Source: Sediminibacter sp. Hel_I_10 (GTDB lineage Bacteria; Bacteroidota; Bacteroidia; Flavobacteriales; Flavobacteriaceae). From it: a stretch of 64,000 nucleotides of DNA. Positions 8,855 through 60,933 of this stretch are shown one piece after another (the stretch's first letter is position 1; each line of letters starts with the position of its first letter). The stretch spans positions 2,790,001 to 2,854,000 of the forward strand of contig NZ_JHZX01000001.1 of assembly GCF_000688335.1 (NCBI RefSeq). The letters are read 5' to 3'. A program made the translations under genes and the position numbers. The notes under the pieces are model-generated. The model did no database searches, had not been told where the DNA came from, and saw only the letters and a program-made list of their open reading frames with translations.

Positions 8855-8880
8855 GATCTATGGCATACAATAAGGGAATT

Positions 8881-8923
8881 CAAACTTAACCCTTAGACCA
8901 TTTTTTTACCGTGACATGGTTTT
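8881..8923 (-). promoter_or_regulatory. Predicted phage late promoter P3 (best copy)
   Basis: TTACCGTGACATGGTTT at 8906-8922 is identical to the elements at 1502 and 5587. Read leftwards, 17 bp separate it from TAAGTTTG (8881-8888), a perfect TAnnTTTG -7 box, with the ATG 26 bp further. The element overlaps the stop codon of the gene that ends at 8922. Confidence 0.65.
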
Positions 8924-41123: not shown

Positions 41124-44100
41124 ATGCAAAAACATAGTTTGAAAAACATGTATGGTAATAAGTTTTGTCTTTTATTCCTGATTTCATTTTTGCTGGGACA
41201 AATGACCTTTGCTCAAAATGAAATTACCGGTACCATAACAGATGCCAACGGCATGGTCATCCCTGGGGTTAGTGTTCTAGAAAAAGGCACGACCAATGGG
41301 GCGCAATCAGACTTCAATGGTACATATGTTATTACGGTAAACGATGGTGCAACATTGCTTTTTTATTACTTAGGGTTTATAACACAAGAGGTTGTCGTTA
41401 AAGAACAAAACGTCATAAATGTGACACTTGAAGAAAATGTGGAGGCTTTGGGAGAAGTGGTGGTTATAGGGTACGGTACGCAAAAACGAGAAGACGTAAA
41501 CTCTGCAATTTCTAGTGTAAATGCTGAAGATTTGGAAGACTTACAACAAGTCAATGTCGATCAAATGCTTCAAGGCAAAGTTTCTGGAGTTACTATTAAA
41601 AATAGTTCAGGGGCCCCAGGAGCAAATGCTTCAGTAAATATTAGAGGGATTACCTCTATATCTGGATCTAGTGAACCCTTATATATCATAGATGGTGTTC
41701 CTATTTCAGGAGACGCCACTAATGGTGCTACCACAGGAAGGACGATTGCTGGAACAGATTTTACATCCCAAGGAAATATAGCACAGAGCCCAATGTCTAT
41801 GATAAATCCAAATGACATTGAGTCTATTGATGTGTTGAAGGACGCCTCTGCAACGGCAATTTATGGCTCTCGTGGAGCAAATGGTGTTATTATAATAACA
41901 ACCAAATCAGGTAAAAAGGGTGCCGGTAAAGTGAGTTATGAAACCTTTACAAGCTTTCATACAATACCGAAATTGTTGGATGCCATGAATTTGAGAGAAT
42001 ATGCCGTATTACAAAATGCTTTGGCAGAAATTTACGGTCAGACCCCGAGATCAGAATTCGCTCAACCCCAATTATTAGGAGAAGGTACTGATTGGCAAGA
42101 GGAAATATCGAGATCTCCTGCACTTGTAAAGAGCCATCAGTTATCTTTTTCTGGAGGTGGTGAAGATATTACTTATTATTTATCTGGAGGATTTCTTGAT
42201 CAACAAGGAACTCTTATAGGCTCAGGGTTTAAAAGATATAGTGTAAAACTGAATTTGAATGCTGAGGTGAAACCTTGGTTAAAGGTTGGGGCTAATTTAA
42301 GTGGAACCATTACCAATCAAGATATTTTGGTGAATTCGAATTATAATGGCGTATTGTCTAACACTTTAAATATCGCTCCTGATATTCCGGTAAGAAATTT
42401 AGATGGTAGTTTTGCGGGCCCACCTGCGGGTCAAGCTGTGTCCTATTTTAATCCTGTAGCAGTAGCATTGAGCAACGACAATAAATTGATTAGAAAAAAC
42501 TTCTTTGGAAATATATATGCCGAGGCTAATATCTTCAATGGTTTAAAATATCGTGTAGAAATTGCTGCAAATACAGAATTTTCAGAAAATAATGAGTTTT
42601 TCCCTGCTTATCAATGGGGAACAACTGTTAACGACGAGGCAGATTTGAATACGAGAAGACAAAATTGGTATTCCACAAATTTCAAAAACTTACTAACGTA
42701 TGATAAGGCGTTTGGTAAACATAGAGTGACCGTGCTGGCTGGTAATGAAATAAATGACACGCGATGGGAGGGGCTTGTTGCTACAGCTACGGGATTCGTG
42801 TCTAACGATATCCAAACCATTAGTGTTGCAGATGCAGAGAGGTCTACAGTTACAGATTATAAAGGGAGTCAAGGTATCCTGTCATTTTTTGGCCGTGCCA
42901 TTTATGATTTTGATAACAGATACAGTTTAACAGCGTCTTATAGAGCAGATGGTTCTTCTAAGTTTGATCCTAATGGTGAAGGTAAGCAATGGGGATATTT
43001 TCCTTCTTTAGCGTTTGGATGGAAACTGTCTAATGAAGCTTTCATGAAAGATGTTGAGTTTATAGAGAATATTAAGTTTAATGTAGGTTATGGTGAAACT
43101 GGTAATTCACAGATCCCGAATAACCAATATTCTTCGACGTTATCAGCTTTTGGGTCGGGTTTAGGTACTGGATTCTTGCTAGATAATATTCCAAACCCTG
43201 ATCTAACTTGGGAGTCTCAACAACAAACGAATATAGGAGTTGGTTTTAGCCTCTTTAATTCAAACTTAACTGTTGATTTCGATGTGTATGAAAAGAAATC
43301 AAAAGATTTCTTGTTCAGGCTTCCGCTTCCATTGTATCTTACTGGAGGAGAGTCTTACGAAGGAGGAATATCATCACCTATCAAGAATCTTGGTAGTATG
43401 CGAAACAGAGGGTTTGACTTGGAGCTGAATTATAAAATGATCACAGAAGCGAATTTTAGTTGGAATTCCTCATTTAACATTTCACATTATAAAAATGAAG
43501 TAACCTCTATACCTAATGGCTTGAGTCTTACAGGAGATATCAACACAAATGGCTTTATAAACTTGACAGCCACAAATACTGTTGAAGGCCAGCCCATAGG
43601 CATGTTTTTCGGTTATATAACAGACGGATTATTTAGGAATTTAGACGAATTAAATTCTGCACCCACACAATTTGGACAGGCAGTAGGTGAGGCTCCTGGG
43701 GAAACCTATTTAGGAGATGTTAGATACAGGGATATTAGTGGTCCTGAAGGTGTCCCAGACGGCGTAATTGATGAAAATGACCGTACTTTTATAGGTAGTC
43801 CACACCCAGATTTCACATTTGGTTTTACTAATAATTTTAGATATAAGGGCTTAGATTTATCGCTTTCGCTTCAAGGATCCTACGGTAATGATTTGCTTAA
43901 TTTAACTAGACGAAGTGGTACTACCAATTCAACCTTATATCAAAATCAACTTTCTGAAGCAATTGATTTCTGGACCCCAGAAAATGTCGATGCTAGTCTG
44001 CCAAGACCTATAGCAAGCTCTAGTAACCCTAACATTAACATGTCTGATAGATATTTGGAGGATGGCTCTTATTTGAGGATTCAAAACTTGACTCTTGGTT

Positions 44101-44309
44101 ACAGCTTACCTACAAAAGTGATATCACGTTTGTCGCTGAGCAGATTGAGAGTTTATGGAACCGTTCAAAATCTATATACGTTTACAAACTATAAAGGCTA
44201 TGATCCAGAAGTGGGATCTGTAAATCAAAACCCGTTTTTAAATGGTATTGATAACGGAAGGTATCCCTCCGCCAGATCGGTGTCATTAGGAATCAATTTA
44301 GAATTTTAG
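41124..44309 (+). CDS. SusC-like TonB-dependent outer-membrane transporter
   Basis: A 1061-aa protein: signal peptide ending in QMTFAQ, a CarboxypepD_reg-like domain (about 33-110: TITDANGMVIPGVSVLEKG...DFNGTYVITVN), the TonB-box region (EVVVIGYGTQKREDV), plug (NVDQMLQGKVSGVTIKN...VNIRGITSIS...YIIDGVPI) and a C-terminal beta barrel. It imports mannan oligosaccharides across the outer membrane with the adjacent SusD lid. SusD begins 5 bp after its stop. Confidence 0.95.
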   Translation: MQKHSLKNMYGNKFCLLFLISFLLGQMTFAQNEITGTITDANGMVIPGVSVLEKGTTNGAQSDFNGTYVITVNDGATLLFYYLGFITQEVVVKEQNVINVTLEENVEALGEVVVIGYGTQKREDVNSAISSVNAEDLEDLQQVNVDQMLQGKVSGVTIKNSSGAPGANASVNIRGITSISGSSEPLYIIDGVPISGDATNGATTGRTIAGTDFTSQGNIAQSPMSMINPNDIESIDVLKDASATAIYGSRGANGVIIITTKSGKKGAGKVSYETFTSFHTIPKLLDAMNLREYAVLQNALAEIYGQTPRSEFAQPQLLGEGTDWQEEISRSPALVKSHQLSFSGGGEDITYYLSGGFLDQQGTLIGSGFKRYSVKLNLNAEVKPWLKVGANLSGTITNQDILVNSNYNGVLSNTLNIAPDIPVRNLDGSFAGPPAGQAVSYFNPVAVALSNDNKLIRKNFFGNIYAEANIFNGLKYRVEIAANTEFSENNEFFPAYQWGTTVNDEADLNTRRQNWYSTNFKNLLTYDKAFGKHRVTVLAGNEINDTRWEGLVATATGFVSNDIQTISVADAERSTVTDYKGSQGILSFFGRAIYDFDNRYSLTASYRADGSSKFDPNGEGKQWGYFPSLAFGWKLSNEAFMKDVEFIENIKFNVGYGETGNSQIPNNQYSSTLSAFGSGLGTGFLLDNIPNPDLTWESQQQTNIGVGFSLFNSNLTVDFDVYEKKSKDFLFRLPLPLYLTGGESYEGGISSPIKNLGSMRNRGFDLELNYKMITEANFSWNSSFNISHYKNEVTSIPNGLSLTGDINTNGFINLTATNTVEGQPIGMFFGYITDGLFRNLDELNSAPTQFGQAVGEAPGETYLGDVRYRDISGPEGVPDGVIDENDRTFIGSPHPDFTFGFTNNFRYKGLDLSLSLQGSYGNDLLNLTRRSGTTNSTLYQNQLSEAIDFWTPENVDASLPRPIASSSNPNINMSDRYLEDGSYLRIQNLTLGYSLPTKVISRLSLSRLRVYGTVQNLYTFTNYKGYDPEVGSVNQNPFLNGIDNGRYPSARSVSLGINLEF

Positions 44310-44314
44310 AAAAA

Positions 44315-45871
44315 ATGAAAATGAAAAAACTATACAAATTATCAGCCCTAACATTGTTTACTTTGATGTTGGGCTCCTGTGAACCTGAATTTTTAGATAG
44401 ACCTTCAGAAGATTCTATCAGTTTAGATAACTTCTACTCCACAAATGCACAAGTAGAAACAGCAACCAATGCCATTTATAATAAAACGTGGTTTAACTTT
44501 CATAATAAAGCATTTTTTGCCATTATGGAAGTGGGGTCTGGGAACATGCACTCTTATTCTAGTGATGTCACAAGCATGCGTAATTTTTCGATCTCCTCTA
44601 CAGACGGAGAATTGGAGAACGCATGGAAATCATTATGGTCTGTCATTGCTCAAACCAATGCTCTAATTAACTTTTTAGAAGTGAGAGTTGGTCCAGATGT
44701 TAGTCAAGAGGTAATAGATAATACTTTAGGCGAAGCTCATTTTTTGAGAGCCACCGCTTATTTTTATTTAGTACGTCTCTGGGGCCCCGTCCCAATTATT
44801 GAGAACAATCTTGATTATGTAGATGCGCCGCAGATAAATACCAATTTGGTTGAAGATGTCTACACGTTTATAGAGTCAGATTATTTAATGGCAATCAACA
44901 AGTTGGATGAAAAAATAAGAGGGACTAATTATGGAGAAAATGGTCGTGTTTCTAAAGGATCTGCCAAAGCCATGTTGTCAAAAGTATATTTAACAATTCA
45001 AGATTACCCTAATGCAAAACAGTATGCGCAAGAAGTAATTAATTCAGGAGAATTTAAACTTTATGGAGGGAGCGCTCTGCCGGAGAAAACCTTTGGCGAT
45101 TTATTTCTTACTAACAATAATAATAACGAGGAGTCCATTTTTGCACTGCAGTGGAAGGTGACTGGCAATTACGGTTTTGCAAGTAACTGCAACACTCAGT
45201 TTGGATATTCCTCATATATTACAAATGCAAACTACGGCGGTGTATTTGGTCCTTCTCAAGATATTCTATCTCTATACGAAGATTCAGATTTAAGGCGAAA
45301 ACAAACCATCATGTTGCCAGGGGATGAGTACCCACTCATCACTACTGCAGACGGCCCCGGATTGGTCGTCCCAGATAATATTGATGCCCAGGGTTCTGGA
45401 GCTGGTATTAAAAAATATGTAGTAGGTAAAATAAGTGAGATAGCCGGTCCTGCCGATGCGTGGGCTATGATGGAAAACAATACCTACATTATGCGTTATG
45501 CAGAATTGCTATTGATTTATGCAGAAGCCTCTATAAACGGAGGTGGCAGTACTAGTGATCAAGCAGCTTTAGATGCATATAACCTTGTTAGAAATAGAGC
45601 AGGGTTGGCTGATGATAGTGATAACGTTTTGACCTTTGAAGAGGTGTTTGCAGAACGAAGAAAAGAATTGGCCTTTGAAGGTGATTATTGGTTCGATTTA
45701 GGGAGAATCCCTAGGTCTGAAGCAATTGCTATTATGAGTAATCAGAACAGAGGAGATCAAAATGTAGAGGCCTATTTTACGCCTACTGAAAGTGATTTTA
45801 TATTGCCTTATCCAGATACAGAGGTCATAAAAAACCCGTTGTTATTGGATGAGCCAGTGCCGTATTATTAA
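44315..45871 (+). CDS. SusD-like substrate-binding lipoprotein
   Basis: A 518-aa lipoprotein with the signal ending LGSC (Cys22). It has the RagB/SusD pattern: LDRPSEDSISLDNFYST at the N-terminus (as in many SusD), TPR-like helices in the first half, and a C-terminal VRNRAGLADD...FEEVFAERRKELAFEGDYWFDLGR. It forms the lid over SusC and binds mannan oligosaccharides. The reading frame starts at 44315 with MKMKKLYKL; a start at the second Met (44321) is equally possible. Confidence 0.95.
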   Translation: MKMKKLYKLSALTLFTLMLGSCEPEFLDRPSEDSISLDNFYSTNAQVETATNAIYNKTWFNFHNKAFFAIMEVGSGNMHSYSSDVTSMRNFSISSTDGELENAWKSLWSVIAQTNALINFLEVRVGPDVSQEVIDNTLGEAHFLRATAYFYLVRLWGPVPIIENNLDYVDAPQINTNLVEDVYTFIESDYLMAINKLDEKIRGTNYGENGRVSKGSAKAMLSKVYLTIQDYPNAKQYAQEVINSGEFKLYGGSALPEKTFGDLFLTNNNNNEESIFALQWKVTGNYGFASNCNTQFGYSSYITNANYGGVFGPSQDILSLYEDSDLRRKQTIMLPGDEYPLITTADGPGLVVPDNIDAQGSGAGIKKYVVGKISEIAGPADAWAMMENNTYIMRYAELLLIYAEASINGGGSTSDQAALDAYNLVRNRAGLADDSDNVLTFEEVFAERRKELAFEGDYWFDLGRIPRSEAIAIMSNQNRGDQNVEAYFTPTESDFILPYPDTEVIKNPLLLDEPVPYY

Positions 45872-45887
45872 TTTGAAAAAAATAACT

Positions 45888-46919
45888 ATGAAAAGTCTAA
45901 TGATTAAAAATGCGTGTCTCGCATTTGCAGTATCCATTTTTTTATTTGTGAGTTGTGACACAAATGATTACGCAGAGAGTTCGTCAGAACCGCCTATAAT
46001 AAATCAGGTAAGTGAGGCTGTTGAGGACGTCCCTGTGACGGTTGGCTTTGCAGGAAATGTATATATAGTGAGAGGCTCTGGTCTATCATCTACACAAAAG
46101 GTATATTTTAATGGTTTAGACACGTATTTTAATCCTACGTTGGTTACAGATACAGTGCTTATAATCCAAGTAGATCAGGATACACCATATGCCAATGTTT
46201 CTAATGAATTATTAGTTGAAACAGTTAATGGCTCTGCAACTTATGAGTTTGTCATTGCTCCTCCTGCGCCAGTTTTTAAAAGCTTTAACCCGATCAATCC
46301 TGAGCCAGGAGAAGAAATCACTATTTACGGTAATTACTTTTTAGATCCTGTGGTAGAAGTGGACGGCGTAGAGGCTACGATTATCTCCTTTTCAATTGAT
46401 GAAATTGTAGCAATTTTACCAGCCGACTCTAACAATAAATACATCACAGTTTCAACCATTTCAGGTTCATCACAATGGTCAACGGCAGTAGGTACTGCAT
46501 TTATGTATGACGATGATTTTATCGGGTCATGGACTATTCCTTCATGGAACAACCATGAATTTATAACAAATGAGGAAGAAGCGTTTCAGGGCACTACTTT
46601 TTTTACGAAAGAAATTGCAGGTTATGATAACATTCAGTCAGATTGGACTTGGGTAGATGACCCAGCGATATTCACCGAATATACAGGTATCAAATTTGCC
46701 ATAAAATCGGATGTTCCAGGAAAGCTCGTTTTGATTTTTAACGGTGCAAATTGGGGAGATGCAAATTTTTCATTTGAAACGTCTTCAGATTGGCAAGAGA
46801 TTGAGTTTACTTGGGCCGAACTTTCAAATCCAACTTTTCTACAAAATATTTCTTTTCAAGAATTTACCGGGAATACTATAAATTACTCCTTTGATAATTT
46901 TGTATATACCTTAGATTAG
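45888..46919 (+). CDS. SusE/SusF-position surface glycan-binding lipoprotein with TIG domains
   Basis: A 343-aa lipoprotein (signal MKSLMIKNACLAFAVSIFLF, lipobox VSC). Residues about 30-115 and 120-205 look like two IPT/TIG Ig-like domains (VYIVRGSGLSSTQKVYFNG; FKSFNPINPEPGEEITIYGNYF), followed by a C-terminal beta-sandwich with aromatic residues (GSWTIPSWNN, WTWVDDPAIF, ANWGDANFSFE) that could bind mannan. Third gene of a susCD operon is the usual slot for surface glycan-binding proteins. The ATG at 45888 is 17 bp after the SusD stop. Followed by a terminator. Confidence 0.82.
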   Translation: MKSLMIKNACLAFAVSIFLFVSCDTNDYAESSSEPPIINQVSEAVEDVPVTVGFAGNVYIVRGSGLSSTQKVYFNGLDTYFNPTLVTDTVLIIQVDQDTPYANVSNELLVETVNGSATYEFVIAPPAPVFKSFNPINPEPGEEITIYGNYFLDPVVEVDGVEATIISFSIDEIVAILPADSNNKYITVSTISGSSQWSTAVGTAFMYDDDFIGSWTIPSWNNHEFITNEEEAFQGTTFFTKEIAGYDNIQSDWTWVDDPAIFTEYTGIKFAIKSDVPGKLVLIFNGANWGDANFSFETSSDWQEIEFTWAELSNPTFLQNISFQEFTGNTINYSFDNFVYTLD

Positions 46920-46952
46920 GATTTTTACTTGAGTTAGTCTAATAACTATAAG

Positions 46953-46985
46953 AGCATCTTGGTATGACACCAAGGTGCTTTTTTA
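46953..46985 (+). terminator. Terminator after the susCDE-like operon
   Basis: Stem AGCATCTTGG (46953-46962) / CCAAGGTGCT (46970-46979) with one T-G wobble, followed by a T-run. The GH27 gene begins 12 bp later, so it may need read-through or its own promoter. Confidence 0.75.
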
Positions 46986-46996
46986 ATAACATTACA

Positions 46997-48202
46997 ATGA
47001 AAACAGACCTACTTCTTATTAGTTTATTGTTTATACAGTTAATACATTCTCAAAAATTTGAGGGATTGGCACAAACACCTCCTATGGGTTGGAATAGCTG
47101 GAATACGTTTGAAACAAATATTAATGAACAACTCGTAAAGGATATAGCAGATAAGTTTGAAGAGCACGGATTTAAAGAAGCGGGCTATGAATATATCGTA
47201 TTGGATGACGGTTGGATGGCAAAAGAGAGAGATGACAATGGAAATCTTATTGCAGATCCTGAGAAATTTCCAAGCGGGATGAAGGCGCTTGCAGATTATA
47301 TTCATTCCAAAGGACTAAAATTCGGACTTTATAACTGCGCTGGTTCTAAGACCTGCGCAGGCTACCCAGGAAGCAGAGGCTACGAATATCAAGACGCTAG
47401 AGCTTACGCGTCTTGGGATGTAGATTTTCTTAAATACGATTGGTGCAATACCGAAAAACTGAATGCAGAAGGAGCTTACATCACCATGAGGGATGCTTTA
47501 AAAAAAGCGGGTAGACCAATGGTTTTCAGTATTTGTGAGTGGGGAGATAATGAGCCATGGAAGTGGGCAGAAGATGTTGGACACATGTGGAGAGCAACAG
47601 GTGATATTATAAATTGCTGGGACTGTGAAGTGGGACATGGTTCTTGGTCTTCAAGAGGAATATGGAAAATCATCAATTTACGTGACAAGATCAGGAAATT
47701 TTCTGGACCAGGGCATTTTAATGATTATGACATGATGGAGGTTGGTAATGGTATGACCAATGCTGAAGACCGAAGTCATTTTGCAATGTGGAGCATGTTA
47801 GCATCTCCTCTAATAATGGGTAATGACTTAAGGAGCATGTCAAATGCCACCATTGAAATACTTACGAATAAAGAGGTGATTGCAGTTAATCAAGATCCAT
47901 TGGGTATTCAAGGGTTTAGATTTACAAATGAAAACGATATGGAGGTATGGATAAAACCTTTAGAGCATGGGAGTTGGGCAATGGTGTTTGTAAACATGAA
48001 GGATCATGATGTCATACTGGATTTTGATTTTACAAAACATGATATAGGCGATGATCTTAAAGGCTTAAGAATGGATTTAGATTCGAATACCTATACCATT
48101 CGAGATCTATTGAAACATTCCGAAATGGGCAATACCAAAAGGAATCTTAAGTCCACTATTAATAGTCATGACGTATTAATGATACAATTGAATAAAAAAT
48201 GA
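46997..48202 (+). CDS. GH27 alpha-galactosidase
   Basis: A 401-aa enzyme with signal peptide MKTDLLLISLLFIQLIHSQ. GH27/clan GH-D features: TPPMGWNSWNTF at the mature N-terminus, LDDGWMA, nucleophile Asp in FLKYDWCN, and acid/base Asp in FNDYDMMEVGN (normally NDPDMLEVGN). It removes alpha-1,6-galactose side chains from galactomannan, making the backbone accessible to the GH5/GH26 mannanases. The start at 46997 is chosen because upstream codons lie in the terminator hairpin. Confidence 0.92.
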   Translation: MKTDLLLISLLFIQLIHSQKFEGLAQTPPMGWNSWNTFETNINEQLVKDIADKFEEHGFKEAGYEYIVLDDGWMAKERDDNGNLIADPEKFPSGMKALADYIHSKGLKFGLYNCAGSKTCAGYPGSRGYEYQDARAYASWDVDFLKYDWCNTEKLNAEGAYITMRDALKKAGRPMVFSICEWGDNEPWKWAEDVGHMWRATGDIINCWDCEVGHGSWSSRGIWKIINLRDKIRKFSGPGHFNDYDMMEVGNGMTNAEDRSHFAMWSMLASPLIMGNDLRSMSNATIEILTNKEVIAVNQDPLGIQGFRFTNENDMEVWIKPLEHGSWAMVFVNMKDHDVILDFDFTKHDIGDDLKGLRMDLDSNTYTIRDLLKHSEMGNTKRNLKSTINSHDVLMIQLNKK

Positions 48203-48582
48203 TTTTCGAATTATGATCGCTCTATTACAATTGATTTATAACATGCTATTTATCAAATGAGAGTTTTGTAAATCATTTTAAGGTACATTTGAGATTAATA
48301 TCCTCAAGGCTTTGAGAAAATTTCTAGGTAAGCTTATTTTTACTGCTTTAAAATGGCTTATCTCAAAATTTAATGGAGGGGGGATGTTGAGCAAAAATAA
48401 ATTTGGTAAAGCTTAAAAGCTTGGGATTAAAATATAGGCATAATATCTTACCGACAAAAATGGTTGAATGAACACAGTAAACCTATGAAACAAAAAAGCG
48501 ATCTAAATAATTTAGAGCGCTTTTTTGTTTCATCTTAGTAGGGCTCATCGCCTCTTAAAAAAAATCTTAGCCTATATTAAAA
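48203..48582. other. Intergenic gap between convergent genes, with one terminator
   Basis: No supported gene in this gap of 380 bp. It contains the bidirectional terminator at 48485-48533 and AT-rich sequence with no other recognised signal. Confidence 0.5.
48485..48533. terminator. Strong bidirectional terminator
   Basis: Nearly perfect palindrome: ATGAAACAAAAAAGCG (48485-48500) pairs with CGCTTTTTTGTTTCAT (48518-48533), and CTAAAT with ATTTAG inside. It lies between the convergent GH27 and beta-barrel genes and carries T/A-runs on both strands. Confidence 0.85.
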
Positions 48583-49167
48583 TTATAATTTAAACGTAGC
48601 TTGTACGGAATGGATCCAATGGTTGTTATCAAACTGTCTATCAGGATGGTTAAACGCAAATTTACCAGTACTTTGAAGCTTTAAACCTATAGTTCTATTA
48701 CTATTGATCCAGAAATTTACACCACCAGAAACGTTTGCTGAAGTGTTCAGTTCATCTATAGTGAAAATACCAACACCACCAGAAACATATAGATCCACCC
48801 AGGTGGCATCATACAAATAATCAGAAAAATAGAATTTCAAATTTGTATTTGTAGAAAAATAAAGGACATCATCACTTAAAACGCCATTATCTATAAACTC
48901 ATTCTTTTCGTATCCATTAAATATAAAGTCTTGTTCAATAGACAAAAATTTCGCCCATTTATGCTCTATAGAAACCATTAAAGGATTTTTAAGTGCAAAG
49001 TCATCAATACGTTCAACAGGATTTCTTGTTCCTAAATTACCAAGCGCATTCACACCTACACTCAAAATCCAATCACTTTGAAAACTTCGGTAAGCTTGTT
49101 TAGTCGGTGATTGGCTATAAGATAACGTGCCTAAAAGCATCATTACAATAAGCAATACATTTTTCAT
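48583..49167 (-). CDS. Outer-membrane beta-barrel protein
   Basis: A 194-aa protein with signal peptide MKNVLLIVMMLLGTLSYSQ followed by alternating amphipathic strands (WVDLYVSGGVGIFTIDE, VSGGVNFWINSNRTIGLKLQS) and a terminal strand ending in Phe-Lys-Leu (VQATFKL), as in OmpA-like eight-stranded barrels. It lies 37 bp after the nucleotidyltransferase gene in the same direction, so it may be the last member of the peptide/kinase operon, or an unrelated porin-like protein. Confidence 0.75.
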   Translation of the reverse strand: MKNVLLIVMMLLGTLSYSQSPTKQAYRSFQSDWILSVGVNALGNLGTRNPVERIDDFALKNPLMVSIEHKWAKFLSIEQDFIFNGYEKNEFIDNGVLSDDVLYFSTNTNLKFYFSDYLYDATWVDLYVSGGVGIFTIDELNTSANVSGGVNFWINSNRTIGLKLQSTGKFAFNHPDRQFDNNHWIHSVQATFKL

Positions 49168-49204
49168 ATCTTAAATTTGGTCAAAAATAGCTATTTAGAA
49201 TTAA

Positions 49205-50269
49205 TTATAAAATAAAATTGGCCGAACTTTTAACAAAGATTTTATTTTTTAGTAAGTGTTTCAAGTAACTGGTGTTTCTAAATACCAGAATAAGACGTTG
49301 GCTAATATTCAAAATATAAAATTTAGCCTTAAAAACAAAGGACGCCAAGCGTTTATGCTTAATTTTTAATTGATAAAGTCTTGTTTGATTTTTGAGATAA
49401 TATGATTTTCCAGTAATGATTCTTGAGTTTGTCCAAATTTGATATAAACTTAAAAAATGGTTGATGTATTTATTTCTGTAGGATTGGTTTAATGAGAAAT
49501 AATCTTTTTTCTGCTCAAGAATCATATGGTCATAAATATTCTTAAGATTTACCTGATTGTAATAGTAATTGTAATTATTGATCTCGGTCGTCAGAATATT
49601 GATGTGTTGAAGAAAATCAATTCTTGGAATATTAATTCCATTTACAGAAATCTTGGTCTCAAAAAGATTGTCAAGGTTTATCAAATCTTTATGTCGTTTA
49701 ATTAATATCTGATCATGAAGTTCAATAGCTGCCAAGCGATTTTCATCAATTTGACGGTCTAGATGTCTAAATTCTTTCACTTTATAATTAAAACCCTTGC
49801 TTTCAGAATAGCCATTGTTTTGAATGAGATCAAATGCACGCTGCAAGTCTACAGACTTAATCAAAACATCGATATCACCAACCATTCTTTCGGCAGGATC
49901 CTGATAACAATTACTCACTAACATGGTTGCTCCCTTGATAAAAACGTGTTCGATATCATTCTGATTCAAAATATTTCCGATGAAATCGATTTCCTTTATC
50001 AAGCCTAAATTTCTATTGCGATTGATGCTTGATAATTCAAAGAGGTATGATTTTAAATCTTCAGGGAGATGATGCAATAGTTGCTTTTGCTCGAGCCTAC
50101 AATAAACTGCTGTTAGCACTAAATGACTACTAGCGATTTTTACCAAGTTCTCCCAATCAATTGATGAAGCGCTTAGAAACTGATCTAATTTTTGATGAGA
50201 ATGTTTAAAACTTAAAATATCAACAATAAGTTGAAATGTAGATTGGTATGATGAAGAGCTTATATTCAA
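49205..50269 (-). CDS. Nucleotidyltransferase-family protein (NTP_transf_5 type)
   Basis: A 354-aa protein with the nucleotidyltransferase core: VFIKGATMLVS (Lys112-Gly113), DPAERMVGDIDVLI (Asp132 and Asp134, the catalytic DxD). Such proteins transfer NMP groups; members of this group are found next to HPr-kinase-like proteins in polysaccharide and peptide loci. Its start is TTG (TTG AAT ATA), because an in-frame TAA lies 3 codons upstream and the next Met is residue 115. It follows the PqqD-HPrK fusion by 34 bp. Substrate unknown; the adjacent peptide or a linked glycan are possibilities. Confidence 0.82.
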   Translation of the reverse strand: MNISSSSYQSTFQLIVDILSFKHSHQKLDQFLSASSIDWENLVKIASSHLVLTAVYCRLEQKQLLHHLPEDLKSYLFELSSINRNRNLGLIKEIDFIGNILNQNDIEHVFIKGATMLVSNCYQDPAERMVGDIDVLIKSVDLQRAFDLIQNNGYSESKGFNYKVKEFRHLDRQIDENRLAAIELHDQILIKRHKDLINLDNLFETKISVNGINIPRIDFLQHINILTTEINNYNYYYNQVNLKNIYDHMILEQKKDYFSLNQSYRNKYINHFLSLYQIWTNSRIITGKSYYLKNQTRLYQLKIKHKRLASFVFKAKFYILNISQRLILVFRNTSYLKHLLKNKIFVKSSANFIL

Positions 50270-50303
50270 ACCTGCTTAGAATTAAAATCAAATATAGGCT
50301 TAA

Positions 50304-51452
50304 TTAAGCTTTAAATAAAGAAGCAAAATTTGATAAGGCAAACTGGTTATCGTTGTAACGAAGCTCGTAAAATTCTACATCACTCAACCAGTCTAAAAAC
50401 AATTTAGCATGGCTAGCTTTTGGAGATAGCCATGAATCGGGAATTAAGGTCTCTAAAATATATTTAGCGTTTGATTGGTTAAAGCGCTGGGGAGTGTTTT
50501 TTGAATAGGTAACGTGTACAATTTTTTTACAAGGGAGTTTCTTTGGTTCATCATTTAGGCACTTAGAAGGAGGGAGGTACCTTATTTCAATACCTTTGGA
50601 GCCGTTTTGATGAGTTTTTAGTTTTTCAAATTGAAAAATTTCCTCGTTCAAACTATTAAAAGCACCTTTTTTTATAGAGATGGCGTTTGGATATCTGTAG
50701 ATATTAAGATCTTCGGCGTACATCGGCGTGAAATCATCCGCTAATAAGTCAAATCCGTCGTTCATCAATAAAGCTGAAAGTGTGCTTTTGCCATTACCGG
50801 AATCTCCAATGAGCATTATAGCCTCTTGATCGTTGCCAATGGTAGAGGCGTGGAATGTGGCTAGCCATTGGTCTTGTTGTTTTTGATGAATCGCATTAGT
50901 GAGTTCCATCGCAAAGTGACCCTGAACAAAATGATAGGTTTTGGTACTGCTACTAAAAATAAAATCGCCGTCTTTATAGAGGCAAAGGTTGTCATCAACT
51001 TTTAGAATCTTAAACTCACATGTAATTTCTTTGTTTGAGTCTAGAGCGTTATGTGCAAGCTGAGGGTGAAATATATGGTTTATGCTCTCTGAGCCGTAAA
51101 GCACTTTAACAATTATATTTCCAAAGGAATACCTATAGGATTCGATGTTTTGCCTAACGGTTTTTGTTTGAACCGTCTTTAAGCCAGACACTACGGCCTT
51201 CTCATTTAGTGTGTTTAATCTAATTAAGAGTTGTTTAAATTCTTTAGAAACCAGAGCAGCTTCTTTGAAATTTAGATGCTCATGGTTAATAAGATGCGTT
51301 ATAAATTCTTCTTCGGAAATAGCATCCAAATATATCTTGATAATCTCATGAGTATGAGTTGAGATGATTACATACTGGTTAGAGCATTCAAACCAAAGTA
51401 TTGTATTTTGATCGATGCTCTTTATATATTTCGGAGATAAGTCCGTATTCAA
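50304..51452 (-). CDS. PqqD-like domain fused to HPr-kinase/phosphorylase-like P-loop kinase
   Basis: A 382-aa protein. Residues 1-about 90 have the compact alpha/beta pattern of PqqD-like recognition domains (QYVIISTHTHEIIKIYLDAISEEEFITHLINHEHL). Residues about 180-330 are HPr-kinase-like: HASTIGNDQEAIMLIGDSGNGKS with Walker A at 216-223, and FDLLADDFTPMY with the conserved Asp pair (239-240). It would bind a peptide through the first domain and phosphorylate it with the second. The start must be TTG (51450-51452): an in-frame TAG lies two codons upstream. The peptide gene ends 16 bp before it. Confidence 0.78.
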   Translation of the reverse strand: MNTDLSPKYIKSIDQNTILWFECSNQYVIISTHTHEIIKIYLDAISEEEFITHLINHEHLNFKEAALVSKEFKQLLIRLNTLNEKAVVSGLKTVQTKTVRQNIESYRYSFGNIIVKVLYGSESINHIFHPQLAHNALDSNKEITCEFKILKVDDNLCLYKDGDFIFSSSTKTYHFVQGHFAMELTNAIHQKQQDQWLATFHASTIGNDQEAIMLIGDSGNGKSTLSALLMNDGFDLLADDFTPMYAEDLNIYRYPNAISIKKGAFNSLNEEIFQFEKLKTHQNGSKGIEIRYLPPSKCLNDEPKKLPCKKIVHVTYSKNTPQRFNQSNAKYILETLIPDSWLSPKASHAKLFLDWLSDVEFYELRYNDNQFALSNFASLFKA

Positions 51453-51468
51453 AACCTAATTGATATTA

Positions 51469-51645
51469 TCATCCCCCATTTAAAGGGTTGCCTCCTGGAT
51501 CTATGCCATCGGGAGGTGAACCAGCATGAGCCTGTTTTGGATTAAGTATAAGAAAAGTACCCACTGCAGTCAATGCGGCGTATTTGCCCATCTTTTTCAT
51601 GGCTTCTTTTCTAGTGATTTGATCTTTAGTTGTGTTTTTTTTCAT
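51469..51645 (-). CDS. Candidate precursor peptide with Tat-like leader, 58 aa
   Basis: A short gene reading MKKNTTKDQITRKEAMKKMG, then a hydrophobic helix (YAALTAVGTFLIL, residues 22-34), then NPKQAHA, a signal-peptidase-I-type AHA site at 39-41. The predicted mature tail is 17 aa (GSPPDGIDPGGNPLNGG). The TRKEAMKK segment is like a Tat motif but has Arg-Lys instead of Arg-Arg. It is the first gene of a tight leftward operon: 16 bp later comes the PqqD/HPrK fusion. I infer a small exported, possibly modified, peptide; alternatively it is a small Tat-exported periplasmic protein of unknown type. Confidence 0.7.
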   Translation of the reverse strand: MKKNTTKDQITRKEAMKKMGKYAALTAVGTFLILNPKQAHAGSPPDGIDPGGNPLNGG

Positions 51646-51884
51646 TTCTTAAAATAATAGCGAGTCAAAAATAATTAAAAAAATATAATATAACAGATAA
51701 ACCCTATTTTAATTAGGCTCAATTATTTAATTAAAACTTTTAACGTCTATTTGTGTTTTTAATCTATAAATTTAGTCTCCCCAGAAAATTAAAACTCCAT
51801 TTTTATAAGTGATTTGACGTGTATCTGTGGTTTACTATAATCTTATTTGTCTCAATCTAACTTGATATAAATACCTGTGAAAAT
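51646..51884 (-). promoter_or_regulatory. Intergenic gap with -7 box (51666-51673) for the peptide operon
   Basis: About 240 bp with no gene. Read leftwards, TATTTTTG (51666-51673) is a perfect TAnnTTTG -7 box 20 bp before the peptide ATG. The -33 element is unclear. Confidence 0.45.
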
Positions 51885-54800
51885 TTATTTTAAAATAATC
51901 TTTTTACTAAGATTTGAATTTGTGTTACTTATTTTGAAGATATAGACACCCGCACTTAGATGGGATACATCAATGTGCTGTTGGTTTTTGTCTGGATTTA
52001 TTTCAAAAGTATATACATTCCTCCCCTGAAGGTCTAATAACTTAGATTTTGTGTTCTTAGGAAGATTTCCATTGATAATTAGTTCTGAGTTTTGTTGAGA
52101 AACAATAATGTTCAAAGATTGAAAATAGGTTTCCATACTTGAAAGCACATCATTAGAAAACCTTAGGAAGAAGCGTCCTGTTCCATCCAAAACAGTCGTT
52201 GTAACGATAGAGTACTCATTTGTATTTAAAAGTGTTGATGTATTCTCATGATTGTCATCAAAGAATACTTGTGTGCCCAATGGCAGAGTAGAGCTGTCAA
52301 TGCTAAAGGTCAATTGTTGACCCTGTACAGCTTCAACGCCTATTGGAATTGTAACGTCGTTTAGGTCTGTGAGGGCTAATGCCTGTATCGCCATGTTTCG
52401 TCCTTGGTTGCTATCTACAAGATGGGAATATACCATAAGCGGGGAAGCAAATGCACTCATAACCGCTGCATCATATCCTGGGTCAAGACCTTGGCTCGCA
52501 TTTTCAGTAAAATAGATCTCTGTTGCAAAATCACTATTGCTATTGGAGATCCTTAAACGCAACATAAAAGTTTCATTGGAGTTTCTGTTATTTATTATAA
52601 AATCGTCGGTTCCGGTTACGGTAGCCATCTCAGGGTTGAATGTAACAGTAGTAGGGGTGTTGTTATCGGGGTCATGGGCAACAAAGAACCCTTGTCCTGG
52701 TGCTATGTTCACCTCGCTATTTGTCAATGCGTTAATAATCGTGAAATTGCCAATTGTTCCAGGGCCAGACATCGTGCCGCTGTTGTAACCGTAAATGGCA
52801 ATGGCCTCATCATCTAGAGCGGCAATGTTGTTGCTGTTTAAGAAGGAGTCTGTCCCGTTTGATTTTATATAACTTGGGTAAGGATTTCCAATAAGGTTCC
52901 AGTTGGTACCTCCTTCAGGATAAGTAATGGTCATTGATGGACTTCCGGTCTCTATAGCTCCATTGAATGTAAGTGTTTGTCCTGTATTGGTGGCTGCCCT
53001 ATAGCCTTTTCCACTAATCAATGTATTTGTGGAGCTTACTGAGAAGTTGGTGTATTGGCTTATCAGATTGTCAAATGGTGCCCAGGCATAGACTGTTCCG
53101 TTAGTAGGCAATATAGTTGAATTTGGAGATCCTTCTCCAAAAGTTAGGAAATTGTCAAAGCCAGGATCTGCTGATATGAGCGGCGCGGAAACGAGATCAT
53201 TGCCTCCAGGGACACCTGAGGTTCCTATAACATTTGTATAGCGATTGTAGGTGATGTTTCCTAAGATGGATGCTGTACCATTAAGAATTAAGCCAGAATA
53301 CAGATTGGCCGTAGATTGTAATATGGTATTCGTAGTTGTTAGTATTACGTCTTCTGAAATTGTCAATGTTGCTCCAGGATGTATTGTGATGTCATTGATT
53401 GTTAAGTCGGAATCAATTTCGGCGTTTCCAGATAAAATTTCAACAGTATCGATGAGTTCTGGGCTTTGATTATTGGGATCGTTAGGCAGCCATAGTCCAT
53501 CATTAAAGGTATAGTTTATTGATTGTGGAACTTGAATGCCCATAAGTTTAAAATTATCAAAACCAGAATAGCCGCTACCTCCATTATTTCTAATGCTAAC
53601 AGAAAGGCTAACGGTTGTGACGGTATCTGGAATGTTAACTGTTACAGATCCTTCGTCCGACTCGAAGTCTACACCTCCATCTACTAAATAGATGGCTCCT
53701 TGTGCAACACCGTCAAAAAACAATTCATATGTAGCATCATCAGAATTAGCATTATATCCCACAATATCCCAATCAAAAGATAATACAGCATTGTTAAATC
53801 CAGTAATATCAATTTCAGTAAAGGTTATTGTAGCAAAATCTGAAGTGCCACCATTGTTGTTTTCAAGATCATTCTCACCTAGTATATTGTTGGAGAAATT
53901 AGAATTGTCAATTGGGCTAGCGTTATTTATAGGTATGATGCCGTAGTAATCATCAAAACTAAAAGGATTTGTAAAAAACGGGATGCTTGTAGTATAGGTC
54001 CACTCCGGAGTTGTAGCATCAAAATCTTGTATGGCAATGGTGATAGGCCCAGAAACAACGTCAAAGGGTTCACTAGTTATATCAGGAAAAAGAACCTCGC
54101 TAGCGGTTAAAACGAAATCACTTCCTGTTTCTGTATGAACAAGATTATCAAAAGTAGCTACGCCATTGATACTAGTTTCAATATGTGGAGACTCAAATAG
54201 GCTTCCAGAAGATGATAGAACGATTTCAAGCCCGTCATAATCAATGTCGGTATTGCCATTGGCATCAGTTGCTGTAACTGTTACGGCTGGAGACATTGCA
54301 ATGTTGGGAGCAACAGTTGAAGGTTGCTGCAAAAATATAATTTCGGTAGCATCAACGTCAATGGTATATAGATTACCAACAATGTCCTCAGAAGTAAAAG
54401 GATCGATAAAACTAGAGCCATTTTCGTCAGCTTCAAATCCACTAGAAGTTCTATTTATTTGAAATTGAATACGACTACCATCTACAATAGCTGTGGGGTT
54501 TAAATAAAAGCCTAGAAAGAATTCTAAAGAATTTCCGTCAGGTATCGAAATTGGAGTTGAGAACTCTAATATTAATTCGTTGTCTTCAATACTGACGGTT
54601 GGTGAATAGTCTACAGAATTTTCATCATATAGAGTAACTCCTTGAAGATGATCTGTCCAGTCAGCAGTATTGTTTTCTCCAGGTACAAATCGCATGGTAG
54701 TAATGTTCGTGGAAAGGTTGTCACCAGATGCTTGATCTTCCACAACAAAAGCCAGAGCGTCTTTAGAGGTTGATGGGGTAATAACATCTATAGCCGTGAC

Positions 54801-56138
54801 TATACTTCCATCAATTTGGGTATTCAGAAAAACTTCTGTAGTAGCATCGTTTGTGTTGGCCTCAACGATTTGAATAGTATAATCTTCAATCTCACCGTCA
54901 TCAGTTCCATCACAGGGTCCTGAAGGATCAGAACCATATCTACTAGCAATACGTATTCTCGTATCACCTAATGTTGCATTTGATGGCACTGTAATGCTTA
55001 ACGGGCTCAAATTAGTAGGGCCATTTTCTGTTCCATTGGCATCACCTAAGTCATATTGTTCTGTGGTCTCATCAAAAATAAAATCTTGATTCCAGTCAAT
55101 CCAAGCAACAGCGTGGATGGTATAAAGACCATCTGTATTCAAATTAACACTTAAATCATAGGTGCCATTCAATTCTACGGTAAAAACAGAGCTTGTAAAA
55201 TCAATATAACCAGAGGGGGCATCTGCTCCAAACAAACTACTGCTATTGGTGGTATCAGCAAATGAAACTTCTGTAATTGAAGTCTCATAAGTGTTATTTC
55301 CCGTAACCTCGCAATAGCTAGGCTCAGTCACCTCACCATTTAAACTAAGGTCTTGCGGGTTGGCACCTCCACCGCTAATAATAAGATTTCCAGTGTAATT
55401 TGCCGTACTAAGATTTTCTATCAAGCGCACCCATATTGTAATTGCTGTACCATCAAAGGAAGATAAGTTAACTGTGTCGTTATACGAATCAAATTCTGAA
55501 GTAGAAACCTCAAAATTTGCTGGTGCGCCAACCATTACAGCGGTTCCATCAAGATTTGATCCTGAGAGCTCAAAGGATTTTGAAGGTGTTGAAGGTCCAA
55601 ATCCCTCAAAATAGTCCAGTCCTGAAATAGAGGTTTCAGAAGACATTAATGAGGGAAGGGAAGATGATACATAAGTAACCTCAAAACTATCAACATAAAT
55701 TCTTTTTCCGCTAGAGCTGTTTCTTTGAAAAAACTCAACTTCAGACAAGCCTGTAATTCCGCTTATCTCATAAGTATTAGTAGTTGAAAGGTTGGTTTGA
55801 GAACCGCCGTCAACAGTATATCCAGCAGGACCTGTGGTGCCCGAAGCGTTAACAACGATGTTAGTGATAGTAACCCCATTGTTGGCATATATTTTTATGG
55901 AGCCTCCCTTTGTTGCATTTTGGTATAATCTTAGCTGATTGCTATTTATTACAGGATTGGAAGTTCCACTGTTTTTGAATGCTCCAAATCCAATATTTGC
56001 ATCCAAAGGAATGCCTGGTGAAGTTTGATTTAGTCCAGAGGTAGCTCCAGATGCTGAAAATTCATAGGTTACTGTGGTTTGCCCAAATGCAAAAAAAGCA
56101 ATAAAAAAGCTAAGCGTAAAAAGGTAAAAGTGTCTCAT
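51885..56138 (-). CDS. Giant T9SS-secreted surface protein with GEVED domain
   Basis: A 1417-aa protein: signal peptide MRHFYLFTLSFFIAFFAFGQ, beta-sandwich and Ig-like regions, a GEVED domain at about 345-425 (VAWIDWNQDFIFDET...GDTRIRIASRYGSDPSGPCDGTDDGEIEDYTIQI), further Ig/jelly-roll regions and a C-terminal T9SS type A sorting domain (SKLLDLQGRNVYTFEIN...DVSHLSAGVYIFKISN). The C-terminal domain directs export by the type IX secretion system and attachment to the surface. It probably works as a large adhesin or glycan-binding protein. No enzymatic motif was seen. It is followed leftwards by the peptide operon. Confidence 0.85.
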   Translation of the reverse strand: MRHFYLFTLSFFIAFFAFGQTTVTYEFSASGATSGLNQTSPGIPLDANIGFGAFKNSGTSNPVINSNQLRLYQNATKGGSIKIYANNGVTITNIVVNASGTTGPAGYTVDGGSQTNLSTTNTYEISGITGLSEVEFFQRNSSSGKRIYVDSFEVTYVSSSLPSLMSSETSISGLDYFEGFGPSTPSKSFELSGSNLDGTAVMVGAPANFEVSTSEFDSYNDTVNLSSFDGTAITIWVRLIENLSTANYTGNLIISGGGANPQDLSLNGEVTEPSYCEVTGNNTYETSITEVSFADTTNSSSLFGADAPSGYIDFTSSVFTVELNGTYDLSVNLNTDGLYTIHAVAWIDWNQDFIFDETTEQYDLGDANGTENGPTNLSPLSITVPSNATLGDTRIRIASRYGSDPSGPCDGTDDGEIEDYTIQIVEANTNDATTEVFLNTQIDGSIVTAIDVITPSTSKDALAFVVEDQASGDNLSTNITTMRFVPGENNTADWTDHLQGVTLYDENSVDYSPTVSIEDNELILEFSTPISIPDGNSLEFFLGFYLNPTAIVDGSRIQFQINRTSSGFEADENGSSFIDPFTSEDIVGNLYTIDVDATEIIFLQQPSTVAPNIAMSPAVTVTATDANGNTDIDYDGLEIVLSSSGSLFESPHIETSINGVATFDNLVHTETGSDFVLTASEVLFPDITSEPFDVVSGPITIAIQDFDATTPEWTYTTSIPFFTNPFSFDDYYGIIPINNASPIDNSNFSNNILGENDLENNNGGTSDFATITFTEIDITGFNNAVLSFDWDIVGYNANSDDATYELFFDGVAQGAIYLVDGGVDFESDEGSVTVNIPDTVTTVSLSVSIRNNGGSGYSGFDNFKLMGIQVPQSINYTFNDGLWLPNDPNNQSPELIDTVEILSGNAEIDSDLTINDITIHPGATLTISEDVILTTTNTILQSTANLYSGLILNGTASILGNITYNRYTNVIGTSGVPGGNDLVSAPLISADPGFDNFLTFGEGSPNSTILPTNGTVYAWAPFDNLISQYTNFSVSSTNTLISGKGYRAATNTGQTLTFNGAIETGSPSMTITYPEGGTNWNLIGNPYPSYIKSNGTDSFLNSNNIAALDDEAIAIYGYNSGTMSGPGTIGNFTIINALTNSEVNIAPGQGFFVAHDPDNNTPTTVTFNPEMATVTGTDDFIINNRNSNETFMLRLRISNSNSDFATEIYFTENASQGLDPGYDAAVMSAFASPLMVYSHLVDSNQGRNMAIQALALTDLNDVTIPIGVEAVQGQQLTFSIDSSTLPLGTQVFFDDNHENTSTLLNTNEYSIVTTTVLDGTGRFFLRFSNDVLSSMETYFQSLNIIVSQQNSELIINGNLPKNTKSKLLDLQGRNVYTFEINPDKNQQHIDVSHLSAGVYIFKISNTNSNLSKKIILK

Positions 56139-56509
56139 TATCTATGTGATTTACTAATAGTTGTCATTTAAAATAAGCGTAGTAAACTTGGTAGATAGGG
56201 AGTGGCAATTTAGCTTGTAATAGGATCTTGGGCGTAAACTAAATATTAAGAGAATATTATAAAACTGTCTTTTTGAGTGTATATAAATGGACCTGATCTT
56301 TTAATTTGATGCATAAACATCTATTTTTAATTTCAATCTTATGCTATTTTACTATGAGGAATGCATATGTTTCTAAATAGAAGTGTTAAAGTAGGGCTAG
56401 ACCGTTTCTTAGTATGGGTTTGAGTTTTGTGAAAATTTTATTGAAAAGAATAGCATAAAAAAAAGCGCACCGATTATGGTGCGCTTTTAATAATTGAGGG
56501 AGGCCTCTT
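56139..56509. other. Gap between the two T9SS protein genes, with terminator
   Basis: About 370 bp without a supported gene. It contains the terminator of the 1263-aa gene at 56461-56488 and presumably the promoter of the 1417-aa gene; no convincing -7/-33 pair was found for the latter. Confidence 0.5.
56461..56488 (-). terminator. Terminator of the 1263-aa T9SS protein gene
   Basis: A perfect 11-bp stem AAAAGCGCACC (56461-56471) / GGTGCGCTTTT (56478-56488) with a 6-nt loop, 21 bp after the stop codon on the - strand, with a T-run in that direction. Confidence 0.85.
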
Positions 56510-60301: not shown

Positions 60302-60933
60302 GATAGTAAAGATTCTTATTCGATTAAAGGCTTATTCCCAGCAAAGATATATGGCAAAAGCTTTACTTTTAGAGAAACCCTAAAATACTAGTTGTTAGTA
60401 TTTAATTCTTGACTAAAACCTCGAAAATGTAAGAAAATACATAATTAAAATTGTGTTTTATAAATTTTTAAATCTAAAACGTATAAAGCACTGATTTATA
60501 ACAATAAAGCACGCTGCTTTGTGCCTTTTTTAGAAGAGGCGCCAATATCACTGTTGCTCATATGATTAACTATAATTAAGTTTTGGTAGAACCAATTAAG
60601 AAGTTCATATGCTTCGCTTATTTTTAAGCGGTATGTTAGCATACTACAAAACTCTAGTGATTATGCCATTGCTTCGCCCAATCCTATTGCAAAATAGTGA
60701 GCAACAAAAAGCTTAAGACCAGATGGTTTCTATATCTAAATATATAACGACCAAGAATATAAAACATCTCTATGAAGACCTAATCTTTACTTATGATGAA
60801 TTGATAATAAGTATTTTTAGAATTTGGGATGTTACAAAATGCTATCCTATATTTGTTTATCATAATTTAAAAAATGAAACCGTCCAGTATAACTAAGCGC
60901 CTTGAGTCCTCTCTCTATTAAATTTAAATCATT
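60302..60933. other. 632-bp non-coding stretch upstream of the broken wecB
   Basis: No supported gene. Contents: a candidate -7 box for the leftward gene (CAAAGATA at 60342-60349, reading TATCTTTG leftwards), short palindromes (AAAGCACGCTGCTTT; GTATG...CATAC at about 60630) and the wecB promoter at 60823-60855. Nothing else recognised. Confidence 0.45.
60823..60855 (+). promoter_or_regulatory. Promoter of the wecB-like gene
   Basis: A -33 TTTG (60823-60826) and -7 TATATTTG (60848-60855) are separated by 21 bp, close to the flavobacterial sigma-A consensus, about 80 bp before the TTG start. Confidence 0.55.

Follow-up and report, generated by a model that had tools for sequence, protein, structure and literature searches.

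What is made by a locus that encodes, side by side, a peptide of 58 residues with an export-like leader, a kinase that appears to carry a peptide-binding domain, and a nucleotidyltransferase? The question is raised by a 64,000-nucleotide stretch of the genome of Sediminibacter sp. Hel_I_10 (contig NZ_JHZX01000001.1, positions 2,790,001 to 2,854,000; G000:C1:2790001-2854000, where G000 is this genome), the whole of which is called the window below. An earlier note on this DNA had described four leftward open reading frames (ORFs) as a candidate peptide-modification unit, and these frames, here termed A (peptide), K (kinase), N (nucleotidyltransferase) and B (putative barrel), were found on the minus strand where it had placed them. 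The genes are real and grouped; the unit, however, begins further upstream than was thought, at a gene for a cargo protein of the type IX secretion system (T9SS), here T1 (51885-56138). The reading preferred here, with a probability of about 0.7, is that the locus encodes a system like those of ribosomally synthesized and post-translationally modified peptides (RiPPs), in which K binds the leader of A and phosphorylates a serine, N elaborates the phosphate, and the leader exports the product. That A is a substrate of K is held with considerable confidence.

Peptide A has a conserved leader and a conserved serine

Gene A (51469-51645, minus strand; family alignments A1 and A5) reads exactly as the earlier note described it, with the leader motif TRKEAMKK, a hydrophobic stretch, AHA and a tail of 17 residues. 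The leader, residues 1-41 (51523-51645), contains QITRKEAMKKMGKYAALTAVGTFLILNPKQAHA and ends in an AxA-type site, the putative point of cleavage; the tail, GSPPDGIDPGGNPLNGG (51472-51522), is the putative core and is variable among relatives. Alignment A5 comprises 47 of 68 A sequences (10 of 23 and 37 of 45 from two sets), from which broken, near-duplicate and some start-less sequences were omitted. R12, A15, K21, T26 and P36 are invariant in all 47 leaders, Y22 is present in 46 and K13 in 43. Leaders are more conserved than tails, whose length ranges from 6 to 55 residues when counted from the residue preceding the serine. This serine, Ser43 in the window (51517-51519), stands directly after the leader in 47/47 peptides and is followed by proline in 44; 14 peptides have it in an AQS context and 12 in an ASS context. 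In the peptide of L099, outside A5, a tyrosine replaces it. Ser43 is the candidate modification site, and probably the correct one.

Peptide A is under purifying selection, with a median dN/dS (ratio of nonsynonymous to synonymous rates) of 0.089 over 194/253 pairs, those whose dS was below 2; as dS is high, the estimates are rough. The companion values are 0.24 for K (94/253 pairs), 0.40 for N (61/253) and 0.24 for B (143/231). Two further observations concern A sequences. The peptides of six T-A pairs in one genome (G363, L090-L093) all terminate in SPE[AVP]PG[EGS]GF. Broken copies also occur: peptide and T are split over several frames in G358 (L108), and the kinase of G085 (L084) contains a stop.

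The leader had been called Tat-like, after the twin-arginine translocation pathway. The motif itself is Arg-Lys rather than Arg-Arg in nearly all aligned peptides: RK in 43 of the 47, RN in three, RT in one and RR in none (A5, this phylum), compared with the consensus S/T-R-R-x-F-L-K (PMC3383694). Because the motif is Arg-Lys, Tat export of A is only likely. TatC was found in 40/40 A-bearing genomes, which belong to 25 genera; since only A-bearing genomes were scored, this result is consistent with Tat export and weak.

A lasso peptide was also considered. The ring of a lasso peptide closes at an acidic residue in position 7-9. Counted from the residue before the serine, 19/47 tails have such an acid, including that of the window (Asp8), and enzymes of the K and N types do tailor lasso peptides (PMC8498205). 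Nevertheless, the acid is absent from 28/47 tails, the leader motif [YW]xxP occurs in 0/47 peptides, and no B2 or cyclase gene was found beside K in the window, where the neighbours are T and B and only the neighbourhood was searched. It is thus extremely improbable that A is the precursor of a paeninodin-type lasso peptide whose cyclase is located elsewhere.

Kinase K carries a predicted RiPP recognition element

K (50304-51452, minus strand) is a protein of 382 residues with a TTG start. Its AlphaFold model, built with 34 aligned sequences, is confident (mean pLDDT 92.7), and its N terminus shows strands at residues 9-13, 16-21 and 26-31 followed by helices at 32-43, 47-58 and 62-79. Residues 1-95 were also modelled by themselves (36 sequences, pLDDT 80), and this second model was compared with solved structures by Foldseek. 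Among the ten best matches in the PDB, TbiB1 with leader accounts for five chains (ranks 1-3, 5 and 6; TM 0.62-0.69) and McbBCD for two (ranks 4 and 9); the others are 6jx3 (a lasso B1 protein with leader), 5why (a sactipeptide enzyme) and ThcOx. All ten titles refer to RiPP biosynthesis, six of them naming a lasso protein with its leader peptide, and the remaining four contain what we take to be RiPP recognition elements (RREs). According to these models, the N-terminal 80 or so residues of K fold as an RRE (residues 9-80, 51213-51428, beta-beta-beta-alpha-alpha-alpha).

The earlier reading of this domain as PqqD-like is therefore sustained in the models as an RRE fold and not by any PqqD match at the sequence level; kinship consists of the fold and a weak profile-profile match. 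In the latter comparison, against ten PqqD-type domains of other phyla, P was 0.0024 and 0.0007 in the two directions and 0.35-0.69 for three controls. In addition, the relative of K in L156 is a fusion whose N-terminal domain matches PF05402 at 1.6e-13, and the alignment of this relative with the K profile begins at position 11. An RRE on a kinase points to a peptide leader as its likely binding target.

The remainder of K (residues 104-379, 50316-51143) had been read as an HPr-kinase-like P-loop domain, which is borne out. TIGR04352 matches residues 197-378 (1.7e-15; 56.9 bits, below the curated cut-off of 200 bits), and Pfam Hpr_kinase_C matches at 3.8e-4, also below the model cut-off. The predicted fold is of the HprK/PEP carboxykinase type: with the whole of K, Foldseek placed PEP carboxykinases first (1.8e-7) and HPr kinases next (6.2e-5). 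The Walker A motif GDSGNGKST (residues 216-224, 50781-50807) and a DD motif are present; G216, S218, G219, G221, K222 and S223, together with H201, D239 and D240, are invariant in 34 sequences (alignment A6).

A side observation concerns translation of K. Its TTG start (51450-51452) is kept at the same place in 19/23 loci and lies one codon upstream in L037 and L044 (homologous loci L024-L045). That a rare start codon is kept across the genus suggests tuned translation.

Nucleotidyltransferase N and protein B

The DxD nucleotidyltransferase predicted earlier is well supported. N (49205-50269, minus strand, TTG start) matches PF14907 (NTP_transf_5) at 1.3e-30, with 107.2 bits over a gathering cut-off of 31.2, and D132 and D134 of the intact DxD motif (49868-49876) as well as E183 are invariant in 30 aligned sequences (alignment A7). 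Comparison of N by sequence with solved structures returned nothing meaningful. We assume from family knowledge that the invariant residues of K and N are the catalytic ones; judged by their motifs, both enzymes look active. The earlier note had regarded the role of a kinase paired with a nucleotidyltransferase as not established. Such a role has been reported elsewhere, on RiPP peptides: phosphorylation, and attachment of a hexose in pseudomycoidin (PMC8498205, PMC13381572).

The chemistry could nevertheless be of another kind. Foldseek ranks PEP carboxykinases ahead of HprK for K, and the family of N is labelled "uncharacterised" in Pfam (PF14907), so that A might be a precursor whose product is no phosphopeptide: K would activate it for amide or ester formation or the like, and N would AMP-ylate it. 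This is very unlikely, as the RRE-associated HprK homologues of the cited papers phosphorylate serine (PMC13381572, PMC10368454, PMC8498205).

Protein B (48583-49167, minus strand) was proposed to be a beta-barrel. In favour of this are its signal-like N terminus and weak matches of 11/22 family members to OMP_b-brl (PF13505; best 4e-4). The copy in the window has no such match, and by sequence B resembles no solved structure in a meaningful way. B is likely an outer-membrane barrel, unproven because the family matches are weak and the window copy lacks one.

The gene set is conserved, and A and K co-occur

K was found in 23/57 genomes searched, namely that of the window, 20/22 others of its genus and two of other genera; among named loci, those of Subsaximicrobium and Psychroserpens have the most similar K. 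T, A and N are nearby in all 22 K-bearing relatives, and the order T-A-K-N-B is kept in 21; the exception, G026, has T-A-N-K and no B match. The conserved neighbourhood that had been asked for is thus present, with the peptide gene kept beside T, K and N, though its adjacency in these 22 loci is not independent because the loci were located via K.

An independent view is given by searching 397 genomes of the family with each profile alone. The A profile matched 42 genomes (40 solid) and the K profile 37 (36 solid). K is present in 35/40 A genomes versus 1/357 genomes without A (Fisher 1e-43, relatedness ignored); weak matches were scored absent here (A in G196 and G427, K in G290), and scoring them present gives 9e-41. 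The single genome with K and without A is G092 (82% complete). A and K also occur in trans: G363 contains six T-A pairs, its single K being located on a different contig, and G167 contains two A and one K elsewhere on the same contig. One enzyme for several precursors is a RiPP-like arrangement.

A subfamily of T9SS cargo proteins accompanies A

The earlier note had put forward the barrel as a possible partner of the peptide. The closest partner is instead the T9SS cargo protein encoded upstream, outside the four genes then considered, and B is a less constant member of the set. Among 72 A-profile matches in 67 loci scanned, some of which are pieces of broken genes, 64 are preceded on their own strand by a T domain that ends within 700 bases; K lies within 1.5 kb downstream of 50, and B within 4.5 kb downstream of 33.

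T1 is a cargo protein of 1417 residues on the minus strand, with GEVED and Por_Secre_tail matches, and its C-terminal domain of about 550 residues (51888-53543) represents the subfamily that accompanies A and K. A second cargo protein, T2 (56510-60301, minus strand), has the same C-terminal domain (41% identity, E 2.6e-100). Both end in a sorting domain of T9SS type A, with TIGR04183 at 33.8 bits in T1 and 45.2 in T2 (6.9e-12) against a cut-off of 23. A third, stand-alone copy of the domain is located at G000:C1:801939-803501 in a frame of 548 residues, with no A beside it; the sole A of this genome is that of the window. The N termini of T proteins are diverse: five of these proteins from outside the window were examined, and their domains include GEVED, FG-GAP, PKD, laminin-G and peptidase M43.

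In 249 family genomes the T profile matched 93 at 1e-40, and 26 reached at least 200 bits, of which 23 are A-positive; the 200-bit line was set after the scores were inspected, and the highest score outside these 26 is 196 bits. The three without A are G092, in which K is present, G110, which is 80% complete, and G165, where the match is partial; a second A profile found no A in them. T is thus a cargo group that tracks A, and this may explain the special C-terminal domain of some T9SS proteins.

The closeness of T invites the explanation that A is a short exported envelope peptide which aids the T9SS cargo unmodified, with K and N acting on some other substrate, such as a cell-surface polysaccharide, and sharing the operon on that account. 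T-A is indeed tighter than A-K (64 versus 50 of the 72 matches). Just past T2, some 10-11 kb upstream of K, are genes for a UDP-GlcNAc 2-epimerase and an UpxY antiterminator, and one alphaproteobacterial set, that of L196, adjoins a Poly_export gene (one of ten neighbouring proteins examined at four loci). Set against this, the kinase has an RRE, which suggests a peptide leader as its target, A and K co-occur across genomes even when unlinked, and Pseudomonadota kinases of the same type adjoin a Tat-like peptide without a T match alongside. We therefore consider this explanation unlikely and retain modification of A by K and N.

Related gene sets occur in other bacteria

A Bacteroidota-wide scan for K matched 5/345 genomes, all in the family of the window, a draw too thin to map the edge of the distribution. 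A scan of named genomes gave six more Bacteroidota loci with long K matches whose title or distance sets them apart from the family (L147-L151 and L153; two from Prolixibacteraceae and one from Mariniphaga). L149 and L150 have T-A-K-N; L151 is alike, with N cut at the contig end; L148 has A-K-N behind a T fragment; and L153 has nothing but an incomplete K where its contig ends. In four loci with weaker kinase matches, L157-L160, no A match was found. One of them, L158 from Desulforhopalus, encodes at 8687-9169 a protein of 160 residues that has RRKAVKTIVGG close to the N terminus; its gene is divergent from a stand-alone PqqD gene and a kinase fragment, and the protein is possibly a distant relative of peptide A.

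In Pseudomonadota, the peptides of relatives have the RR motif. Thalassobius vesicularis (L155:8309-9565) has four tandem Tat-like peptides, YSRRDALRAVGKYS, YSRRDVLASVGKYM, FTRREALRAVGKYS and LTRREVLKSVGKYS, directly before a kinase and N. They share [ST]RR[DE][AV]L...VGKY, and three have NPP in Cys-containing tails; the kinase has a PqqD-like N terminus (PF05402 at 1.1e-4, just below cut-off). A gammaproteobacterial metagenome-assembled genome has one NRRAFLKKAGKF peptide (NRRAFLKKAGKFAVYTPP) before a PqqD-kinase fusion and N. A plasmid search with the Thalassobius kinase gave two weak matches, neither with a convincing Tat-like peptide by a loose regular expression.

Within the class of Thalassobius, TIGR04352 matched at 1e-10 in 25/289 genomes, seven of them over cut-off. 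Tat-like small ORFs were counted around K in 12 of 14 fetched loci (L206 had no K-profile match and L207 only a weak one): 18 lie within 2 kb of K (59 kb of sequence) versus one in 119 kb further off. Such an ORF is near K in 11/12 alphaproteobacterial loci versus 1/13 probable ordinary HprK loci, the latter being 13 of the 15 loci L178-L192, whose ordinary status is inferred from weak, short TIGR04352 matches. The L204 peptide is convincing only through a looser expression and reading by eye, and L205 has none. In L203 (G531), two Tat-like peptides at 5759-6578 and the kinase genes are encoded on opposite strands.

A proposed course of modification, and its strength

From these genes, their order and co-occurrence, the intact motifs and the two predicted folds, we infer the following course. 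In the cytoplasm, the RRE domain of K would bind A by its conserved leader, and the HprK-like domain would phosphorylate Ser43 just past the leader, perhaps more than once. N may then add a further group to the phosphate, either a nucleotide or a hexose, the latter being the group reported in pseudomycoidin; the chances that it adds a sugar or nucleotide to the phosphorylated serine are about even. The leader would double as an export signal of the Tat-like or Sec type, and cleavage behind AHA by a signal peptidase would free the modified peptide of 17 residues in the envelope. There the peptide would serve the dedicated T9SS cargo encoded just upstream, a role slightly favoured over its absence, with B as a possible outer-membrane partner. 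The proposed chemistry is carried over from linear polyphosphorylated peptides (LPPs; PMC13381572), BsfK (PMC10368454) and pseudomycoidin (PMC8498205).

A number of observations weigh against this course, besides the acids in the tails discussed above. For the RRE, the Foldseek E-values of the ten best matches are 0.05-0.5, none below 0.001 (probability 0.69-1.00), and PqqD itself (3g2b) appears at rank 22 with E 1.3. The N-terminal domain matched none of PF05402, TIGR03859 and TIGR04353 at E up to 10 (HMMER filters on). Its sequence profile retrieved no solved RRE from the PDB, the low-E matches being designed TPR proteins and other unrelated chains, and the hhalign probability in the comparison with PqqD-type domains is low, at 12-26%. 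For export, the twin arginine is never present in the 47 Bacteroidota leaders of A5, and no gene for a leader peptidase or transporter adjoins the gene set, the adjacent genes being T and B. For the chemistry, LppN of the LPP clusters was inactive in its test host (PMC13381572).

For the pairing of peptide and kinase, 5/40 A genomes have no K match (G180, G318, G326, G338 and G358; all 82-92% complete, with a broken peptide in G358). L147, in Bacteroidota, has T, K and N with no A found, and the second kinase locus (L166) of the gammaproteobacterial genome is without such a peptide. The rule behind the alphaproteobacterial count of 11/12 was written after examples had been seen, and the 12 loci include one of these examples, L208; moreover, about 4 of the 18 near ORFs look like chance frames (one in L201, two in L202, one in L204), which reduces the count to 10/12 loci.

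Other genes of the window

A TonB-dependent receptor and an alpha-galactosidase at 41124-48202, convergent to the gene set, probably form a polysaccharide utilisation locus. On the other side, the UDP-GlcNAc 2-epimerase ORF (61153-62031) and the UpxY-type antiterminator (62338-62808) likely mark the edge of a surface polysaccharide locus; the epimerase ORF is perhaps short at its N terminus because its match begins at profile position 52. No Rfam element was matched in 46000-61000, and promoter and terminator scans gave no excess over shuffled sequence. A defence or phage system was rejected, as PADLOC and PHROGs gave no match at 0.01.

Comparison with known systems

The trio of enzyme types is already known to act on peptides. 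No counterpart was found in the literature searched for the Tat-like leader, the fused RRE, the T9SS partner, or a gene set with neither peptidase nor exporter alongside. Open-licence papers in PMC yielded none on an HprK-related kinase, on PF14907/NTP_transf_5 or on combinations of HprK, PqqD, twin-arginine and RiPP.

The nearest counterpart is formed by the LPPs, described in 2026 from lpp clusters of Bacillota (PMC13381572). Both have an RRE, an HprK-like kinase and an NTP transferase with no cyclase alongside and a linear product expected, and both have a short precursor with a conserved N terminus, a variable C terminus and leader removal of the signal-peptidase type, which is a prediction in the case of A. 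LppK phosphorylates Ser3 of a core starting AQSNWK, and the AQS context of that serine recurs in A (14/47, with ASS in 12/47). The differences lie in the RRE, which is discrete in LPP clusters and fused to the kinase here; in the leader, which is YxxPxVLxHQxIxFETxxS there and Tat-like here, with [YW]xxP in 0/47; and in the accessory genes, since LPP clusters have a dedicated SpI peptidase and an MsbA-like exporter, neither of which adjoins A-K-N in the neighbourhood searched, where T9SS cargo genes do. In paeninodin, pseudomycoidin and the BsfK system, likewise, an HprK-like kinase phosphorylates a core serine, aided by an RRE (BsfB1) (PMC8498205, PMC10368454), and in pseudomycoidin a nucleotidyltransferase puts a hexose on the phosphate (PMC8498205); the present genes differ in having no adjoining lasso cyclase or B2 and no YxxP leader. 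As the leader motif and accessory genes of these systems were not found in or beside the genes, the present system is classed with neither LPPs nor lasso peptides. If it works as proposed, the range of phosphorylated RiPPs, which includes Bacillota and lasso clusters, would take in marine Bacteroidota as well.

The HPr-rel-A set of NCBIfam (kinase A, TIGR04352; PqqD-type chaperone, TIGR04353) belongs to the same kinase superfamily. In the seven loci over cut-off, a PqqD-type domain was cut from five, an N-profile match stands beside K in four, and a Tat-like ORF lies within about 2 kb in all seven. K differs in its score (56.9 bits against 200) and in having the RRE in one chain. HPr-rel-A was not mentioned, and no target for the set named, in the open-licence papers found; peptides of the present kind are a likely substrate for this kinase, chaperone and nucleotidyltransferase set, and the related gene sets in other bacteria suggest a more general way of decorating exported peptides.

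With the PorU sortase of Porphyromonas gingivalis the likeness is hypothetical: a T9SS cargo and a dedicated envelope acceptor. The acceptor there is an N-seryl linking sugar on lipopolysaccharide, and no peptide is named in the available part of the source (PMC13086638). A bolder and decidedly doubtful extension is that the modified peptide is an encoded surface anchor. Its free N terminus (x-Ser...) would accept the C terminus of the T cargo via the T9SS sortase, and a phospho-sugar built by K and N on the serine would tie the peptide to an envelope glycan; the Tat-like leader with RRE-HprK and NTP_transf_5 would then define a peptide class across Bacteroidota and Pseudomonadota, the substrate of HPr-rel-A sets. 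If so, the anchor peptide would have the part for T that the N-seryl linking sugar has for the cargo of P. gingivalis. The system proposed here would couple RiPP-type logic with type IX secretion and with a leader that is itself a signal peptide.

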